NCBI GenBank assembly: GCA_009773645.1
Contig: WSYB01000012.1
Location: 1-64,000, forward strand
Reading direction: 5' to 3'
Length of the DNA: 64,000 bases
Source: Geobacteraceae bacterium
GTDB taxonomy: Bacteria; Desulfobacterota; Desulfuromonadia; Geobacterales; Geobacteraceae
Part shown: positions 53,567 to 63,037 of the stretch, in pieces
How positions within the stretch are numbered: the stretch's first letter is position 1
Layout of the letters: every line of letters starts with the position of its first letter
Notes under the pieces: generated by a model
Databases searched by the model: none
Told to the model about the DNA's origin: nothing
Seen by the model: only the letters and a program-made list of their open reading frames with translations
Program-made: the position numbers and the translations under genes

Positions 53567-54388
53567 TCACTCCTTGTAAGGTTTGTAGCTCACTACCTGG
53601 AGATCGTCTTCAACCCGCCGAACCCCCTTGATCCTACCGATGATTTTTATGGCCTTGTTCTTTTCGTCTTCGGAATGGACATGCCCGGATAGAAAAACTT
53701 CGCCCATGTGAGATTCTATTTTAATGTGGGAGTTCCCCACCTTCCCGGACTTTAACAGCTCGGTCTCCGCCATTTTACAGAGAATGATATCTTCCAGAAC
53801 CTCTTTAGCCTCTGTCTCCCCCTGCTTCAGCTTGGGGTCCTTGGCCGCGGCCACTATGCTTTCGACTATGGCGCTTTTGGATAACCGTGAGGTATTGAAC
53901 ACAAGGTCGTAACCGAGCGGGTCGCTCCAATCCCTGTCGAAGTAAAAGTGGATAAATCCGCCGCGCTGATGGTCGCTCTTCCGGATCAGATCCCGCGCCA
54001 GATCAGGATCGATCCATTCCCGCTCGGCAAAGTTCTCCACCCTTTCATCAAAAGGCGCTATAAAGCGGACCCGCACAACATTACGGAGTCCGGTAAGAAG
54101 GTCCTGCCCCCCCCGACCGTAAAGGATGACATTCCCTTGCTTCACGCAGTCCAGAAGTATCAACTCCATGGTGCTCAGGTGGGCGGCCTGTAATCTGTCT
54201 TCTGCGGTTATATAGACAGGGGGTTTTTCATCAATCCGTTCCAGTATATCGGGAGTCAAACCATAGCGGGGAGCCAGTTCGGCGATCTTCTGACCGTCAA
54301 CCAGCGTGTACTTCAATTTTTTTGCCGCTTCCTTCGCAATCAGATAAGCGCCGGTCCCCATCTCCCGGGATATGGTGATAATCGCCAT
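53567..54388 (-). CDS. Cytidylate-kinase-like domain fused to BON domain
   Basis: A 273-residue protein. Residues 1-200 match the cytidylate-kinase-2 family (AIITISREMGTGAYLIAKEA, LYGRGGQDLL, RVRFIAPFDERV); the P-loop is degenerate (SREMGTGAYLI rather than GxxGxGKS). Residues 205-270 look like a BON domain (NSHIKIESHMGEVFLSGHV, GVRRVEDDL), usually involved in lipid or surface binding. The fusion is unusual. Function unknown; kinase activity is doubtful given the missing P-loop lysine. A TGTATACA core lies about 75 bases upstream. Confidence 0.75.
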   Translation of the reverse strand: MAIITISREMGTGAYLIAKEAAKKLKYTLVDGQKIAELAPRYGLTPDILERIDEKPPVYITAEDRLQAAHLSTMELILLDCVKQGNVILYGRGGQDLLTGLRNVVRVRFIAPFDERVENFAEREWIDPDLARDLIRKSDHQRGGFIHFYFDRDWSDPLGYDLVFNTSRLSKSAIVESIVAAAKDPKLKQGETEAKEVLEDIILCKMAETELLKSGKVGNSHIKIESHMGEVFLSGHVHSEDEKNKAIKIIGRIKGVRRVEDDLQVVSYKPYKE

Positions 54389-54575: not shown

Positions 54576-55259
54576 TTAATCGAGCCGCACCTTCTTGACG
54601 CCGCTGGTGGCCACTATAACATTAACCAGGTTGCAGGCTAACTCCCGGGCGCTGTATTTTACCTCAAATTCGAGAAATATGTCCCTGCTCTCCATATCCT
54701 TTTCGATACTGACATTCATCACCTGCACCTGACAATCCGCCAACAACTTTTCAATTCTCCCCATCTGGCCTTCCATGTCTGCACTCCAGACCTTGACCGA
54801 TGAATAGGTGTCTCTGCTCAGCTTGTTTTCTACCTTTTTTAGAAGCAGGAGGCTGACAAGGGCAAGCATTGTTACCACAGTCGACGTGGCGTACATGCCG
54901 ACACCGCAGGCGATGCCGATTGCCGCAGCCACCCAGAGGCAGGCGGCCGTGGTAAGACCTCGAATGGAAGCCTTTTCTCTTATGATCGCACCGGCGCCGA
55001 GAAAACCGATCCCGGTTACCACCTGAGCGGCGATCCTGGAGGGATCGACCCCCACCGGCACTGTTCCACTGAAATTACCGTACAGTTTGTAAAAGTGGAT
55101 TGAGGCCAAAGCAAAGAGACAGGAGCCGAGGGAAACCAGAAGATGGGTCCTGAAGCCGGCGGGGCGGCCGTGGACCTCCCTTTCCAGACCGATAAGCCCG
55201 CCCAGGATTGAAGCAAGCAGTATTCTAACCACCGAAACCATGTCAAAATCAAATTCCAT
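54576..55259 (-). CDS. MgtC/SapB-family membrane protein
   Basis: A 227-residue inner-membrane protein with an N-terminal MgtC domain of four to five helices: LGGLIGLEREVHGRPAGFRTH, TGIGFLGAGAIIRE, RGLTTAACLWVAAAIGIACG. The C-terminal 80 residues are a soluble ACT-like domain. MgtC proteins act in magnesium stress and membrane energetics, often by modulating other transporters. It is 21 bases beyond the MglA-like gene stop, on the same strand. Confidence 0.9.
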   Translation of the reverse strand: MEFDFDMVSVVRILLASILGGLIGLEREVHGRPAGFRTHLLVSLGSCLFALASIHFYKLYGNFSGTVPVGVDPSRIAAQVVTGIGFLGAGAIIREKASIRGLTTAACLWVAAAIGIACGVGMYATSTVVTMLALVSLLLLKKVENKLSRDTYSSVKVWSADMEGQMGRIEKLLADCQVQVMNVSIEKDMESRDIFLEFEVKYSARELACNLVNVIVATSGVKKVRLD

Positions 55260-55280: not shown

Positions 55281-56111
55281 TCATTCAGAGGTGATGGAGA
55301 TATTTATCGCCACCTTCTTCTCCCGGCCGCCATACCTTACCACCAACGGCAGCCGGACACCGCCGTTGCCTATCAGTTCCGGCTCGCCGAGAAAATCAAC
55401 TGTCGGCTCTCCAGCTACGATACCGGCTGGCTCTTCAGGCATTACCGGCTGTGACGATGGGGGAGCTTCCTCCGTCATGACGGTTGCAGGGGAGATCGCA
55501 GCCTCCTCCTCGGCGCCCAGCTCCGCGCCGCTCTCACGCAGCTCTTTCAACACCATTTTCACCACATTAAAGAGGGCCTCAAGAACCCCTTCTCCTTGTG
55601 CGGCAACGGCAGGTAGCAAAGCTGCATTGCCTGAATTCAAAGTGCGCAGCATCTCCTCCGGAGAAACGGCATTGGCCAGATCCTGTTTATTACACTGGAT
55701 TACACACGGCGTATCCGCCAACGCTTTGCCGTAAGCGGTCAGGTAGGCACAAAGGCTGTTAAAACTCTCCAGATTTGCCGCCATCCTCTCCCGGCCGGAG
55801 TCAGCCACAAACACGACGCCGTCAACCCCCTTCAGCACCATTTTCCAAGGGGAGGGGTGAGATGCTTCCCCGATAATCGTGTAGACGTGAAAGCGGACAT
55901 CGTAGCCGCCGACTGTTCCTTGTCCCGTCGGTGTAAAATCGAAGAAGAGCATCCTCTCCTGCTGGATATTCATCACCTTGAGCTTGCCGCGATACTCGGG
56001 CTTCAGTTTCTTGTAGATATAATTAAGGTTGGTTGTCTTGCCGGAAAGCCCCGGACCGCAATAGACGATTTTTGCATTTATTTCCCGTTTTGCGTGATTG
56101 ATCAGTGCCAT
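55281..56111 (-). CDS. MglA-like small GTPase with C-terminal extension
   Basis: A 276-residue protein whose first 190 residues match MglA, the bacterial Ras-like GTPase of cell polarity. Walker A is GPGLSGKTTN (19-28), the guanine-binding motif is NKQD. The arginine finger R53 of MglA is conserved (QERMLFFDFTPTG), but the catalytic glutamine at position 82 is Glu (TIIGEASHPS). The last 85 residues are acidic/proline-rich and then beta-strand like, not part of known MglA. Third gene of an operon with the SPOR and HEAT-like genes (gaps of 15-16 bases). Confidence 0.85.
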   Translation of the reverse strand: MALINHAKREINAKIVYCGPGLSGKTTNLNYIYKKLKPEYRGKLKVMNIQQERMLFFDFTPTGQGTVGGYDVRFHVYTIIGEASHPSPWKMVLKGVDGVVFVADSGRERMAANLESFNSLCAYLTAYGKALADTPCVIQCNKQDLANAVSPEEMLRTLNSGNAALLPAVAAQGEGVLEALFNVVKMVLKELRESGAELGAEEEAAISPATVMTEEAPPSSQPVMPEEPAGIVAGEPTVDFLGEPELIGNGGVRLPLVVRYGGREKKVAINISITSE

Positions 56112-56127
56112 ACGGTCTTCCTCCCTG

Positions 56128-57006
56128 TTACTGCTTTTTCTTGTTCAACATGATCCTTCGCGCCTGAGTCGAAATCACCGACGAGACATTCTTGCTTTTT
56201 GCCATGGCAGCCAGGTCCTTATCGGTCAGCGATGCTACAAAGCGTAATGCGTAGGGAAGCGGCGTCTTATGATTTTCGGCCAGCGCCTTGCGGATCTGAT
56301 AGTTTTTGGCCCACTCCTTATTGGCACAAATGACGCGCATGATCTCGTCATTTTGCACGCTGGACTTGGCTATGGCCAGAATCTCCGGTTCGGTAATACG
56401 GGGATTTTTCACAACCGACCCGGATACCAGCTTATTGGCATCCTTGATCAGGAGGCTGCGCCATTCCTTATCGCCGGTAAGCGCTGTCTTGATCTTTTCT
56501 GCAACTCCGAGGGTCTGCGCCAATTGGTACTTGGTCTTATATTCCTCACTCTCCTCATCGATTCCCGTCTCTTCGGTTTCCACAGCCTCTTCTTCCACCG
56601 GAACAGGGGAGCGCATCTCTTCCTCGGCGCCGGTTACCCGATTTCTCTCTGCCAGGAATGCGAGGGTCCGGCTCTCGATATTGGGGTGCGCAAAAAGCCT
56701 GTCAACTATCGCCTCTTTTGTACAGTGAAGCCGAGCCAGAACGTCCAGCACCTGCGGATGGGCACCGGCGTAACCAACGATGGACATTACATCGGCTTCC
56801 GACATTTCTTGTAAATGTTTGCGGGCTGCACTCCGTATATCCGTATCGGCATCGTGGCTCAGAAAAAACAGCACTGCTCCCAAGTCCCCGGCCGAAAGGG
56901 GGATATCTCCGCGCGCCGCCTTCATTTTCTCCTCTTTCGACACATCTCCACTGACGAACGCAGCGGCGGCGGCCGATATCTTGAGTATTACCTTGTCCCG
57001 GGCCAC
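56128..57006 (-). CDS. HEAT-like repeat protein (DUF2336 type)
   Basis: A 292-residue helical protein, start GTG at 57006 behind AAAGGAGG. Residues 20-110 have repeats of the form LSHDADTDIRSAARKHL and ILARLHCTKEAIVDRLFAHPN, resembling DUF2336/HEAT repeats. A central acidic stretch (residues 125-155, EEEAVETEETGIDEESEEY) links to a second helical region. It probably serves as a scaffold for the MglA-like protein encoded next. Function is inferred from context only. Confidence 0.6.
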   Translation of the reverse strand: MARDKVILKISAAAAAFVSGDVSKEEKMKAARGDIPLSAGDLGAVLFFLSHDADTDIRSAARKHLQEMSEADVMSIVGYAGAHPQVLDVLARLHCTKEAIVDRLFAHPNIESRTLAFLAERNRVTGAEEEMRSPVPVEEEAVETEETGIDEESEEYKTKYQLAQTLGVAEKIKTALTGDKEWRSLLIKDANKLVSGSVVKNPRITEPEILAIAKSSVQNDEIMRVICANKEWAKNYQIRKALAENHKTPLPYALRFVASLTDKDLAAMAKSKNVSSVISTQARRIMLNKKKQ

Positions 57007-57021
57007 GAGCCTCCTTTCCAA

Positions 57022-58059
57022 TCAGTTCGTTGAGACTACCTTGGCTTCAATACCCGCTTTTTTCAACCTCAGCGCCGCATTCCGCGCATCCTCTTTGTGA
57101 ATAAAACTGCCGGCCGTCACCCTCGTAATCGGAACCTTGACGTCGGCCTTTTTCAAGACCAGCTTCACCCCCTGGTCGTAGAGCCGGTCCTGTTCCTTGG
57201 CAGCCCGCCCCTCCCTGAAATATGAGCCGGCATACACCACATACTTGCCGTTCTCCTGGAGGATAAACGCATCAGTGGTCAATTTATTCAGTTTTTCCAG
57301 CTCGGCCTGAGCCGATTCATGATCTGCAAATTCAGCCAGGAAGAGTCGATGCATCGGTTCAATCTTCATGCTTCTTTTCCTGTGCACCGGAGCAACAGCC
57401 GCCTTCGCAAGCTTTGTCTGTATCTTTTTAACCTCTTCAGCAGCGAAGTCGCCGATAAAAAGGATATACGCACCGTGGGTCCCATTTTCGTACGGCTTTG
57501 ACGCCTTTTGTGACGTCTTTTCATGCTCAACGCCTTTTTTTAGAGAGGCCTTCCCAGAAATGGCAGAAGAAGCGGGTTTCGCTCCCTTCCTCTCCTGGGG
57601 CGTGGTCGACGCAGCAGTAACAGGCGCCGGTTTTGCCGGCGCCTTTTTCCCGGACGGTTGTTCCGGTTTGGCGGCCTTTACCGGTTCAGGTTTTGCCGGA
57701 GGAGGCGCCGGCTTGGCGTTCTGCTGGATCGGAGCCTTTGATTTTTGGGATTCAGACCCACGGGGAGGCGTTGTTTCCTTTTCCTGGGAAGCCATTTTTA
57801 CTTCGGGCTTTATCGATGGCGCCTCTTTTTCTCCCGACTTTTCACTACGCGGCGGGATCGGCTTTTTCACCACAACAGAGGGCTCAGGCGGCGATTTAAC
57901 CGTTTCTTCTCTCGGTTTGATCAATCCGGTAAAGAAATAGAGGTACCCGCACAGGGCCACAACCATGAGGAGCACAAGAAGCGATATCTGCGGCCCCCCT
58001 CCTTTTTCTCCACCGGCAGCGGTTTCCTCTTCCTTTTCCGGTGAAACGCGCTTAAACAT
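57022..58059 (-). CDS. Membrane-anchored protein with SPOR-type domains
   Basis: A 345-residue bitopic protein. One transmembrane helix (about residues 26-43, ISLLVLLMVVALCGYLYFF) follows a short cytoplasmic head, then a long Pro/Lys/Ala-rich linker of about 170 residues. The C-terminal 130 residues have SPOR-like repeats: LEKLNKLTTDAFILQENGKYVVYAGSY and KADVKVPITRVTAGSF. SPOR domains bind denuded glycan strands at the division septum. The start ATG at 58059 has a GGAGG site. First gene of the SPOR/HEAT/MglA operon. Confidence 0.8.
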   Translation of the reverse strand: MFKRVSPEKEEETAAGGEKGGGPQISLLVLLMVVALCGYLYFFTGLIKPREETVKSPPEPSVVVKKPIPPRSEKSGEKEAPSIKPEVKMASQEKETTPPRGSESQKSKAPIQQNAKPAPPPAKPEPVKAAKPEQPSGKKAPAKPAPVTAASTTPQERKGAKPASSAISGKASLKKGVEHEKTSQKASKPYENGTHGAYILFIGDFAAEEVKKIQTKLAKAAVAPVHRKRSMKIEPMHRLFLAEFADHESAQAELEKLNKLTTDAFILQENGKYVVYAGSYFREGRAAKEQDRLYDQGVKLVLKKADVKVPITRVTAGSFIHKEDARNAALRLKKAGIEAKVVSTN

Positions 58060-58162: not shown

Positions 58163-60256
58163 TCAATGGGAATTGTTCTTATTGCCTGCTGCGGCTTCGG
58201 CAATTACTTTCTGCGCCAGGTGACTCGGCACCTCTTCATAATGGGAAAACTCCATGGTAAACATGCCCCGGTCGCTGGTCATCGACTTCAGGTCGTTGGC
58301 ATAGGTAAGTACCTCGGCCATCGCAACCACCGCCCTGATGATCTGCGAGTTGGCCTTCGGCTCGACACCAACAACCTTTCCGCGTCGGGCGTTCAGGTCG
58401 CCGATCACATCACCCATACATTCTTCGGGAACAGTGACCTTTAAATTCATTATCGGCTCAAGAAGGACCACCTTGGCGGACTCCATCGCCTTCTTGAACG
58501 CCAGGGAGCCGGCAACCTTGAAAGCCATCTCCGAGGAGTCGACGGTGTGGAATGATCCGTCGTAGACCGCGGCCCTGAAGTCCACCATCGGATATCCGGC
58601 CAGGAACCCATCCTGAGACGCCTCATAAATACCTTTCTCCACCGCCGGAATATACTGGCGCGGGATCACTCCGCCGACGATCTTGTCCTCGAACAGGAAA
58701 CCGTCGCCCGGCTTCTGGGGAGCAAACTCCACCCAGCAGTCGCCATACTGGCCACGCCCGCCGCTTTGTTTCTTATATTTCCCCTGGGCCTTGACAGTTG
58801 CCTTGAAGGTCTCCAGGTACGGAACCTTCTGGGTCTTCATTTCCACCTCAACCCCGAACTTCCGCTTCAGCTTCTCAATGGTTACTTCCAGGTGCACCTG
58901 CCCCATACCTGACAGGATAAGCTCGCGTGTCTTCTCATCCCGGCGCGACTGTATGGTCTGGTCCTCCTCCATGAGGCGGTGGAGCGCACCGTGAATCTTG
59001 TCCTCGTCATTCTTGGTCTTCGGCTGGATGGCGTAGGATATGACCGGCTGGAGCAGTTTGGCCGGCTCGAAGATGATCGGTTTGTCTTTCTGGCAAAGGG
59101 TATCGCCGGTAAGGGTCTCCTTGAGCTTCGCCACCGCAACGATATCACCGGCCACCGCCTGTTTGACAGGTTTCTGCTTTTTCCCTTCCAGTTCGTAAAT
59201 CTGGCCGATCCGCTCTTCACAGTCCCTGACCGGGTTATAGACGTTCGAATCGGAATTGAGGGTCCCGGAATAGACCCTGAAGATGGTTATTTTCCCGGTA
59301 TAGGGGTCGGAGGTCGTCTTGAAGACGAGGGCCGAGAAGGGTGCGCTCTCATCCGGCGCCCGCTCCTCGGATTCCTTCGTCTTCGGATTGGTTCCGACCA
59401 CCTTGCCCCGGTCGAGCGGCGAAGGGAGGCACTGACAGATGTAATCAAGGAGCTGGTGGACACCGACATTCATGACTGCCGACCCGCATAAAACCGGGGT
59501 AAAGGTATAACGCAGCGTGCCTATCCGCAGGCCGTCGAGTATTTCCTCTTCGGTAAGTTCCCCTGTTTCCAGGTACTTTTCCGTGAGGGCGTCATAGGCC
59601 TCCGCCACGGTCTCCACGAGTACGTCCCGCAGGCGCCGGGCTTCCGCCAGGTACTCGGCCGGTATTTCTCCCTCGGCAAAAGCGCCGGAAAGGTCCGTTG
59701 AGTAGCGATAGGCCTTCATCCTGATGAGGTCGATCACCCCCTCGAAAGACTCGGCAGCGCCGATGGGCATCTGCACCGCCACCCCCCGCGCCTTGAGTGA
59801 CTTCTCCATGTCGTCGATCGCCCGGAGAAAATTGGCATGTTCACGGTCCATCTTGTTCACGAAGGCGATGCGCGGGATCTCAAACTCGTTGGCCCATTCC
59901 CATACATCTTCGGTCTGGACCTTGACGCCTGAAATGGCGGAAAGGATCACAACTGCCCCGCCGAGCGCCCGCATACAGGAGCGGGTGTCGGCGATGAAGT
60001 TGCCGTAGCCGGGGGTATCGACAATGTGGAGGAAATGGCCTTTCCATTCACAGTGGTGGAGGGACGAAGATATCGTGATCTTTCTCTTGATTTCCTCGGG
60101 CTCAAAATCCAGATTGGAGGTGCCGTCGTCGACCCTTCCGAGTCGGTCGGTCATCCCGGACGTGAAAAGAATCGCCTCTGCGAGGGAGGTCTTCCCCGCC
60201 CCGCCGTGGGCCACAATACCAAGATTTCTCAGCTTCGCAGTATCATACTTTGCCAT
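58163..60256 (-). CDS. Elongation factor G paralogue (EF-G2-like)
   Basis: A 697-residue translational GTPase. The P-loop is AHGGAGKTS (EF-G has AHIDAGKT), then DTPGYGNF and NKMD. EF-G domains II-V follow (IFRVYSGTLNSDS; GMGQVHLEVTIEKLKRKF; GRGQYGDCWVEFAPQ; GYPMVDFRAAVYDGS; the C-terminal SHYEEVP). EF-G2 paralogues in many bacteria have weak or no translocation activity. It is not beside rpsL/rpsG or tuf, as the true fusA would be. Confidence 0.87.
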   Translation of the reverse strand: MAKYDTAKLRNLGIVAHGGAGKTSLAEAILFTSGMTDRLGRVDDGTSNLDFEPEEIKRKITISSSLHHCEWKGHFLHIVDTPGYGNFIADTRSCMRALGGAVVILSAISGVKVQTEDVWEWANEFEIPRIAFVNKMDREHANFLRAIDDMEKSLKARGVAVQMPIGAAESFEGVIDLIRMKAYRYSTDLSGAFAEGEIPAEYLAEARRLRDVLVETVAEAYDALTEKYLETGELTEEEILDGLRIGTLRYTFTPVLCGSAVMNVGVHQLLDYICQCLPSPLDRGKVVGTNPKTKESEERAPDESAPFSALVFKTTSDPYTGKITIFRVYSGTLNSDSNVYNPVRDCEERIGQIYELEGKKQKPVKQAVAGDIVAVAKLKETLTGDTLCQKDKPIIFEPAKLLQPVISYAIQPKTKNDEDKIHGALHRLMEEDQTIQSRRDEKTRELILSGMGQVHLEVTIEKLKRKFGVEVEMKTQKVPYLETFKATVKAQGKYKKQSGGRGQYGDCWVEFAPQKPGDGFLFEDKIVGGVIPRQYIPAVEKGIYEASQDGFLAGYPMVDFRAAVYDGSFHTVDSSEMAFKVAGSLAFKKAMESAKVVLLEPIMNLKVTVPEECMGDVIGDLNARRGKVVGVEPKANSQIIRAVVAMAEVLTYANDLKSMTSDRGMFTMEFSHYEEVPSHLAQKVIAEAAAGNKNNSH

Positions 60257-60340: not shown

Positions 60341-61111
60341 TTAATTTTCCCTGTTGCGCTGATACAGTATCCGCAAACCCTCCAATGTCAGATATTCATC
60401 CACATCATCAATAGTCTTTGATTCCGGAGCGATAAGACCGGCCAACCCGCCGGTGGCGATGACCCGGGGGTTGTCCCTGCTCTCTCCCTTCATCCGCCCG
60501 ACTATCTCGTCCACCAGCCCGATATAGCCGTAAAATATCCCGGCCTGCATGGAATTCACTGTGTTTTTCGCAATTATTGAAGGAGGTTTGACGATCTCGA
60601 CCCTGGGCAGTTTGCTGGCTCTCTGAAACAGGGCCTCCATGGAAATCATCAGACCGGGGGCAATGGCACCGCCGCAGTACTCCCCCTTCCTGTTGACGTA
60701 ATCAAAGGTTGTGGCAGTGCCGAAATCAACGATTATCAGAGAGGCCCTGTACTTTTCATGGCCGGCTACGGCGTTGACAATGCGGTCCGCCCCGACCTCC
60801 TTGGGGTTGTCATAATGAATCGGCATGCCGGTTTTTATGCCGGGGCCGACCACATAAGGTTTGAAGCCGAAATATTGCAGTGAGAGCTTTTCCAGTACCC
60901 CTGTCAGGGTCGGCACCACAGAAGAGATGATAATGTCTTTGATGTCGTCGAATCCTATACCGGCCATCCTGAACAGGTCATGGACCAGAATACCGTATTC
61001 GTCCGGCGTTTTCGACTTATCGGTGGAAACCCGCCAATCCTTGACCAGCCGTTCTTCATCGTAAATACCGAGAACAATGTTGCTGTTGCCCACGTCGATT
61101 ACCAGAAGCAC
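60341..61111 (-). CDS. coaX: Type III pantothenate kinase
   Basis: A 256-residue ASKHA-fold kinase for the first step of CoA synthesis. Motifs [10 protein letters not shown] (phosphate), [27 protein letters not shown] and [11 protein letters not shown] are present. It is downstream of birA, with a heptamer array between, and both probably belong to the nadC-birA-coaX transcript. Confidence 0.92.
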
Positions 61112-61196: not shown

Positions 61197-62210
61197 TCAC
61201 AGAATCGTCACATCTCCGGCCAGCACTTTTTCGACCCGCCCGTCGGGGAGCTGCAAGAGGAGCGCTCCATAGTCGTCTATCCCCACCGCCACACCGGTGA
61301 TCCCGCTCTCCTGAAAGGAGACCTTGACCTTACGCCCACAGATATCGCAGCGCGCCAGCCATTCTTCTCTGACAGGGGCATATCCCCGTGCCAGATAGGA
61401 ATCGTAGAGCTCATCGAGGGTTTTCAGGAGATTACGGGTAAAATAAAGGCGGCTTACGTCCTTTCCCGCTTCCAGGGCAAGCGAGGTGGCGGGATGGCGC
61501 AGGTCGTCGGGGAACTGCGTACGCTGCATGTTGATGTTAACCCCGATACCGAGCACGACAAAGTTTACCTTCTCGGTTTCGGCGCTCATCTCATTCAAAA
61601 GGCCGGCCACCTTCATGCCGTTGATCAGGACATCGTTGGGCCACTTGATAAAGGGGCGCAAAGCGGCGGTTTCCGCCACGGCCCTGGCAACCGCCACCGT
61701 GGAAAGGAATGTAAGTTGTGCAGCCTGCATCGGCAGTATGGGAGGACGGAGGACTACGGAACAATAGAGGTTAACTCCCGCCGGAGATTCCCAACGCCGT
61801 CCCAGTCTCCCTTTGCCGCGCCGCTGCTTTTCCGCGATCACCACGGTCCCCTCTTCCACCCCTTCCTCGGCCAACCTGAAGGCAACCTCATTGGTGGAAT
61901 CGGTTTCCCGGAAACAGATGATCCTTCGGCCGATCCTCGTAACCGTCAGCCCTGCGGCTATCTCTGCGGGGATAAGGATATCCGGGGAAGTCACGAGACG
62001 ATACCCCTGGGAAGGAACCGCCACAATCTGGTAGCCGAGATCCTTAAGGGACTTGATGTGCTTCCAGACCGCCGTACGGGAAACCTCCAGGACCCTGGAG
62101 AATTCTTCGCCCGAAACTACCCCCCCTTTTTTTGCATGGAACAGTTCCAGGATTCTTTGATCCAGATTTTTTCCACCGGTGCCGCTGGTATGGGTAAAGG
62201 AATCCCTCAT
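61197..62210 (-). CDS. birA: Biotin-[acetyl-CoA-carboxylase] ligase/biotin repressor
   Basis: A 337-residue BirA. Residues 10-70 contain a winged helix (VSGEEFSRVLEVSRTAVWKHIKSL) that could bind DNA, so it may also be a biotin-operon repressor. The ligase domain has RRGKGRLGRRW (biotinyl-AMP loop), KWPNDVLI and GIGVNIN. The ATG at 62210 follows GGAGGGG and overlaps the nadC stop (TGATG). Confidence 0.92.
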   Translation of the reverse strand: MRDSFTHTSGTGGKNLDQRILELFHAKKGGVVSGEEFSRVLEVSRTAVWKHIKSLKDLGYQIVAVPSQGYRLVTSPDILIPAEIAAGLTVTRIGRRIICFRETDSTNEVAFRLAEEGVEEGTVVIAEKQRRGKGRLGRRWESPAGVNLYCSVVLRPPILPMQAAQLTFLSTVAVARAVAETAALRPFIKWPNDVLINGMKVAGLLNEMSAETEKVNFVVLGIGVNINMQRTQFPDDLRHPATSLALEAGKDVSRLYFTRNLLKTLDELYDSYLARGYAPVREEWLARCDICGRKVKVSFQESGITGVAVGIDDYGALLLQLPDGRVEKVLAGDVTIL

Positions 62211-63037
62211 CACCCCTCCAGAAGCATGGAAATGTCCATGGCCCGCGCCGAATGGGTAAGCGCGCCGACAGAGATGATATCTACGCCGGTTTCGGCAATC
62301 TCCCGGACCGTTTTCAGACTTACTCCCCCCGAAGCCTCCACCAGTGCCCGGCCTCCTATCAGGGCAACCGCCTCACGCATCGCTGCAAGATCCATATTAT
62401 CGAGCATGATGATATCGGCTGCTGCGCTCAACGCCTCGGCAACCTCTGCCAGCGTCTCCGTCTCCACCTCGATCTTCATGGTGTGCGGAATGTACGCTCT
62501 GGCCCTGTTTACCGCCTCCGCTATGCCGCCTGCCGCGGCAATATGGTTCTCCTTTATCAGCACCCCGTCGTACAGGCCGGTCCGGTGGTTTATACCGCCG
62601 CCAACCCGCACAGCGTATTTCTCCAGTATCCGCAATCCGGGGGTGGTCTTGCGTGTGTCGACAACCCTCGCCTTGGTTCCCTTGACCGCTTGCACATAAT
62701 GGGAGGTGAGGGTTGCCACTCCGCACATCCGCTGCAACAGATTGAGCGCTACCCGCTCTCCCTGCAAAAGGAAAGCTGCGTCGCCAACGATCTCGGCGAT
62801 GACATCACCGGCTTTAAGCCGCGCTCCATCGGCAAAATGGGAATCAAAGTGTATGCAGGGGTCCAGCAGATGGAAAACCCTTGCCGCCACTTCGATGCCG
62901 GCGAGCACCATTTCTTCCTTGGCCTTGAGCAACGCGCGCCGTTCCTGACTCTTGGCCACTACCGCCAGCGTAGTGATGTCGCCGGTATGGATGTCCTCCA
63001 AAAGGGCGTTTTCAATTATCCTGTCCAGACCGGTCAT
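62210..63037 (-). CDS. nadC: Nicotinate-nucleotide diphosphorylase (carboxylating)
   Basis: A 275-residue enzyme that makes nicotinate mononucleotide from quinolinate and PRPP. Visible are DIHTGDITT, LLQRMCGVAT, DTRKTTPGLR (PRPP site), RVGGGINHRTGLYD, IKENHI and KIEVETETL. A TGTATACA core lies about 110 bases upstream. It heads the nadC-birA-coaX run. Confidence 0.94.
   Translation of the reverse strand: MTGLDRIIENALLEDIHTGDITTLAVVAKSQERRALLKAKEEMVLAGIEVAARVFHLLDPCIHFDSHFADGARLKAGDVIAEIVGDAAFLLQGERVALNLLQRMCGVATLTSHYVQAVKGTKARVVDTRKTTPGLRILEKYAVRVGGGINHRTGLYDGVLIKENHIAAAGGIAEAVNRARAYIPHTMKIEVETETLAEVAEALSAAADIIMLDNMDLAAMREAVALIGGRALVEASGGVSLKTVREIAETGVDIISVGALTHSARAMDISMLLEG

Follow-up and report, generated by a model that had tools for sequence, protein, structure and literature searches.

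What does an MglA-like protein do when it has lost residues of the GTPase switch and is encoded without MglB? This question is raised by a locus of a Geobacteraceae bacterium (contig WSYB01000012.1), of which a stretch of 64,000 nucleotides (the window) was analyzed. The protein concerned (276 aa; 55281..56111, reverse strand) was identified from the list of open reading frames and a PDB sequence match, and consists of a G domain (residues 1-195), a low-confidence linker (~200-235) and a C-terminal beta domain (~237-271). Its best PDB match is M. xanthus MglA (5ymx, E 7.2e-55), and since residues 1-196 of the one align with residues 1-196 of the other, MglA residue numbers are valid for the window protein. 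The earlier note on this DNA had reported an arginine finger, Arg53, together with Glu in place of the catalytic Gln82, and both were confirmed on the reverse strand (codon 53 at 55953..55955 and codon 82 at 55866..55868, read as 55955-55953 and 55868-55866). On the same strand, Met replaces the Mg-binding Thr of switch I at codon 54 (55950..55952) and Trp replaces Arg on the switch-II side at codon 89 (55845..55847), while the alignment with 5ymx reveals a further departure, Pro80 to Ile. These three replacements had escaped the earlier note.

The window protein was compared with MglA of Myxococcus xanthus and Thermus thermophilus, which belong to Group 1 of Wuichet and Sogaard-Andersen. It shares their fold and is similar in sequence, with a P-loop (GPGLSGKT) that fits GxxxxGK[ST], the intrinsic Arg53, Thr78 of the TxxG motif and an NKQD motif that fits both NKxD and [NT]KxD. 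It differs from them in G2, where Arg53 adjoins Met instead of Thr54, in G3, which reads TIIGE instead of TVPGQ, in Trp for Arg89, in an extra C-terminal domain and in the absence of MglB from the operon, none being coupled to it within four genes in the window. A closer counterpart is found in the 2010 listing of "MglA2" proteins, long MglAs without MglB that include the 291-aa NP_952979.1 of G. sulfurreducens (PMC3000849). The features given there, namely a length of 225-327 aa, a C-terminal domain, no MglB immediately upstream and Thr78, are all present in the window protein, which has size, C-terminal domain, lack of an adjacent MglB and lineage in common with NP_952979.1. Compared by published description, the two very probably belong to the same gene family. 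The part of that paper which describes MglA2 mentions neither motif loss nor operon context, and our literature searches recognized no published account of either; the sections consulted of a G. sulfurreducens Tn-seq study (PMC5585712) held nothing of use.

Structural and mutational work on M. xanthus MglA, in the sections of the two papers that deal with these residues, shows what is at stake. MglB shifts Arg53 and Thr54 into the active site, where Thr54 completes the coordination of Mg, and the Q82L variant does not hydrolyze GTP but binds MglB stably (PMC6876712). The T54A protein is stable, but diffuse or mislocalized and non-functional, and Q82A/R protein was not detected (PMC3000849), so that in canonical MglA such a change has consequences. 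In the MglA-GTPγS structure without MglB there is no contact between Thr54 and Mg (PMC6876712), and the loss of Thr54 thus need not block GTP binding. Judged from the replacement of Thr54 and Gln82, GTP hydrolysis by the window protein is likely to be altered or absent, which supports the slow or altered hydrolysis that had been proposed. Because Thr26 of the P-loop, Arg53 and NKxD are retained, this copy probably still binds guanine nucleotide, which would then be locked in place, and the protein may even keep some GTPase activity.

The AlphaFold2 model of the protein (mean pLDDT 89.5) is closest to MglA-GDP (6hjo, rmsd 1.2, TM 0.96), a comparison that has no canonical-MglA model as control; the GTPγS form (6h17) follows with rmsd 1.6 and TM 0.92, and the MglB-bound forms with 0.88-0.90. 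Over residues 2-194 of the model, VIA gave a Z of 31.5 and 50% identity to 5ymx. A model of the C-terminal domain matched six of the ten operon MglAs with intact motifs from outside the order at E < 0.01 and none of the canonical MglAs, which indicates that many operon MglAs have had the domain for a long time.

The absence of MglB is a property of the operon and not of the cell. No MglB-like ORF was detected in the window, in 38 operon loci or in 80 named loci, in agreement with the earlier description of the operon, which had left open whether mglB lies elsewhere. It does: contig C14 of the same genome carries a canonical mglB-mglA pair, which rules out that the organism has no MglB. A corresponding canonical pair, GSU0099/GSU0098, is listed in PMC2825233, as far as the relevant entry goes. 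A third MglA-like protein of this genome, its motifs intact, is encoded on contig C36 (L004 1291-1947); the ORFs on its two sides, judged by eye, are of response-regulator/HD type and histidine-kinase-like, respectively. A second Roadblock gene was also found (L006 1420-1779, contig C63); its product is a 119-aa Roadblock/LC7 protein (27.5 bits, cut-off 23), and its neighbors by eye are an SMC-like and an FtsY-like ORF.

To place the replacements in the window protein, 119 unique G domains were compared: 88 from the window clade, 10 from operon MglAs of other Desulfobacterota lineages outside the order (L070-L072, L074, L179, L180, L182, L185, L203 and L204), 20 from canonical MglAs and the third paralogue. 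The truncated L038 was merged, and so were sequences that share the same first 205 residues, among the latter L210, one of the 20 canonical loci. L073 was dropped by the start-finding rule, its sequence having canonical GKTT, DRT and TVPGQ, and L195, a short MglA beside its own MglB with Lys at position 53, was excluded. Five of the 80 named loci contribute no sequence, L118 having an assembly gap inside MglA and L129, L133, L152 and L155 having no MglA that could be found. Thr26, Arg53, Thr54, Gln82, Arg89 and NKxD are all retained in the operon and canonical controls (30/30). Thr54, in contrast, occurs in none of the 88 clade members, which have Met (49), Leu (37), Ile (1) or Ser (1) instead. 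Position 82 is occupied by 14 different residues (E 19, P 17, D 14, T 6, K 5, A 5, R 5, Q 4, N 3, G 3, L 2, I 2, S 2, M 1), and the four sequences with Gln are nested inside the clade. This tally rules out Glu82 as a conserved functional substitution: the Glu singled out in the earlier note is present, but as one state of a drifting site, while the fixed change is the loss of Thr54, which had been missed. Similarly, the arginine finger remains in the window copy but not clade-wide, being kept in only 37 of the 88. Ser/Thr26 is retained in 36 members and gone in 52, NKxD is retained in 58 and gone in 30, and in 12 members all five catalytic or binding elements are gone; these 12 are probably true pseudo-GTPases. 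Other positions are retained or newly fixed. Gly19 and Lys25 of the P-loop are found in 88/88 and Thr78 in 84/88. Newly fixed are Lys45, in 80 (Arg in 7), and Trp89, in all 88 as against Arg89 in 30/30 controls, which at this site is a replacement and more than drift.

A GTPase that is locked in the GTP-bound, constitutively "on" state, which binds GTP, hardly hydrolyzes it and is controlled by its synthesis, an exchange factor or partners, could account for the window copy, where Gln82 is replaced while Thr26, Arg53 and NKxD remain; the M. xanthus Q82L protein, dead in hydrolysis and stably bound to MglB, is a precedent in the portion of the work that reports it (PMC6876712). This reading is close to the view of the earlier note. 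An "on" switch would need Thr54, Ser/Thr26 and NKxD, and their disappearance from 88, 52 and 30 of the 88 members, respectively, means that it can fit the window copy, one of only 13 members with Thr/Ser26, Arg53 and NKxD all retained, but not the whole family. We therefore regard it as doubtful. The change of a GTPase into a non-cycling protein across the clade is, from the residues lost, very likely.

The 88 sequences form one clade (FastTree support 1.0), and its members from genomes of stated kinship all lie in Geobacterales, the named loci being placed by record titles only. Rooting the tree on the canonical MglAs puts L004, the third paralogue, inside the operon MglAs, and the tree thus fixes neither the monophyly of all operon MglAs nor the group most closely related to the decayed clade. 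The ten operon relatives from other Desulfobacterota lineages share cluster position and length with the window clade but differ from it in that every catalytic motif is retained (10/10), which suggests that in Geobacterales the switch of a long MglA was lost. One of these intact-motif proteins (L180 3155-6016, reverse strand) lies in a 954-codon open frame with a long acidic tail.

Loss of catalytic residues might also mean that the gene is redundant, decays neutrally and will in time disappear, as the decaying motifs and four loci that have the cluster without MglA would allow. Pairwise Nei-Gojobori dN/dS of the clade mglA, calculated for pairs with 0.05 < dS < 2 that are not independent of each other, nevertheless has medians between 0.117 and 0.285 in those eight of nine groups of close relatives that gave a usable MglA pair; these values are close to those of the HEAT gene and higher than those of EF-G. 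They rule out pseudogene decay, and together with Gly19, Lys25 and Trp89 in 88/88 and the conserved gene order they leave neutral decay as a most improbable account. Low dN/dS and conserved gene order argue for working genes. The clade thus combines loss of the residues of the GTPase cycle with purifying selection, a combination expected of a pseudo-GTPase, which in addition would hydrolyze no GTP or bind no nucleotide. Eukaryotic hydrolysis-dead small GTPases and pseudo-GTPases have likewise kept the Ras-type fold after losing switch or catalytic residues; unlike them, the window protein is bacterial, derived from MglA and bound to an operon.

Directly upstream of the MglA-like gene, on the same strand and with gaps of 15 and 16 nt, lie a gene for a HEAT-like protein (56128..57006, reverse strand) and one for a membrane protein with a long Pro/Lys-rich linker and a SPOR domain (57022..58059, reverse strand; PF05036, 50.6 bits, cut-off 21). 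The latter starts with ATG at 58059 and has one membrane segment as judged by eye. The tight HEAT/SPOR/MglA-like operon, which reaches up to 58059, is as first described. All on the reverse strand, it is preceded by genes for an EF-G paralogue (58163..60256, profile match), the type III pantothenate kinase CoaX (60341..61111, profile match and gene order), the biotin ligase BirA (61197..62213, gene order) and NadC (62210..63037, gene order), all conserved neighbors. On the other side an MgtC/SapB-family membrane protein (54576..55259, reverse strand; profile match and gene order) is a frequent downstream neighbor, and so is a fusion of a cytidylate-kinase-like PF13189 domain with a BON domain (53567-54388, reverse strand). 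A scan for promoters and terminators yielded no usable signal above chance. The 38 operon loci come from genomes of the window's class and were picked by a match to MglA; up to the limits of their contigs they repeat the order NadC-BirA-CoaX-EF-G-SPOR-HEAT-MglA. In two of them (L075, L076) no HEAT gene was found between SPOR and MglA, which directly follows SPOR.

The 80 named loci are the best 80 of 239 relatives picked by HEAT, not by MglA, with titles that include Geobacter, Geomonas, Geotalea, Citrifermentans, Trichlorobacter and Oryzomonas as well as MAGs with loose names. The gene right after HEAT is MglA in 75 of them; of the other five, one has an assembly gap and four have EF-G-SPOR-HEAT but no MglA (L129, L133, L152, L155). 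SPOR immediately precedes HEAT in 78, the remaining two being contig ends. The HEAT-like model matches 130 of 395 genomes of the phylum. Among 40 phylum-wide HEAT loci examined, MglA lies directly after HEAT in 11, and one more (L195) has a short MglA, accompanied by an MglB of its own, at a greater distance, whereas EF-G is present in 34, several of them without a SPOR match. Conversely, the HEAT gene is absent from three of five genomes searched (G138, G139, G140), two of which are the source of L075 and L076. The proposed HEAT-type partner does adjoin MglA, but it is not an obligate partner of operon MglA.

The earlier suggestion of a role in polarity or division is not supported by this distribution: EF-G is the most constant neighbor, and a septal role is not to be taken for granted. 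The genome has three EF-G family genes above cut-off, a better-scoring one being on contig C24, which marks the operon copy as a paralogue, and a translation-linked role is accordingly possible. The operon might then be built around translation, with the MglA relative and the HEAT-like protein working for the EF-G paralogue, perhaps as a tether for EF-G or ribosomes, and with SPOR as a later addition, as its absence from several of the EF-G-containing loci would permit. The argument is one of gene order, and NadC, BirA and CoaX are equally constant nearby although unrelated to EF-G, while SPOR directly precedes HEAT in nearly all named loci; a translation operon therefore appears rather unlikely.

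The HEAT-like protein itself (292 aa) has a GTG start at 57006, preceded by AAAGGAGG, and is a helical-repeat protein of two lobes, the C-terminal one conserved, according to its sequence and predicted fold. The name given to it is a fair one for the predicted fold, since the model is all-helical (mean pLDDT 91.6), yet Pfam yields no HEAT match for this copy up to E 1; HEAT_2 is matched by 13 of 37 orthologues at E ≤ 0.1. Foldseek returned no match to the model at E ≤ 0.001, and the best VIA Z was 7.7, with generic solenoid matches only. By our own thresholds, and ignoring kinship, M166 is the only site that passes a weak test for loss together with MglA, and conservation of the HEAT-like protein appears hardly to depend on the presence of MglA. 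Three residues within a stretch of nine, N219, I222 and C227 in window numbering, are derived in the clade with decayed MglA, and Cys227 is found in all 74 sequences compared. The three may have changed together with Trp89 or may simply record the history of the clade.

In principle, the GTPase cycle could still run if the missing catalytic groups were contributed by the HEAT-like protein or a different partner, acting as an unconventional GAP. The constant adjacency of HEAT and MglA and the three clustered sites would suit such a role. We consider it quite improbable, given that the P-loop Ser/Thr and NKxD decay too, that HEAT occurs without MglA and MglA without HEAT, and that the three sites may be nothing but clade history.

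Taken together, our results favor, with a probability of roughly 60%, an operon-bound paralogue of the MglA2 type that lost its switch in the ancestor of Geobacterales and became a non-cycling, constitutive adaptor. The ancestor of the operon MglA would have been a normal GTPase in the long form, with G domain and C-terminal domain. In the Geobacterales ancestor Thr54 and Gln82 would have been lost and the fixed Trp89 gained. With Thr54 and Gln82 lost clade-wide, residues of the GAP-assisted hydrolysis step, as characterized in the structural part of PMC6876712, are gone, from which we infer that the ancestor of the clade stopped cycling. The protein would then be held in one conformation, fixed rather than acting as a timer, and would probably act on the SPOR and HEAT-like proteins of its operon, putatively at the membrane or septum. 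Later lines would have lost nucleotide-binding residues as well. A more specific proposal, to which we give somewhat less than even odds, is that of an MglA-derived pseudo-GTPase family in the EF-G/SPOR/HEAT operon in which, with the loss of Thr54 and Gln82 and the gain of Trp89 and Lys45, the switch gave way to an adaptor surface that is permanently set and independent of nucleotide, several sublineages then doing without nucleotide binding.

The conserved cluster of EF-G paralogue, SPOR, HEAT-like and MglA genes was left out of a main survey of bacterial small GTPases, which in 2014, according to its account of sequence selection, excluded sequences > 240 aa (PMC4316618). One operon position provides a natural series with an intact GTPase at one end and, at the other, a protein that lacks all five catalytic or binding elements, and the intact canonical MglA and MglB of the same cells are a built-in control for it. 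The series makes it testable which functions of MglA depend on the GTP cycle and for which the fold is enough.
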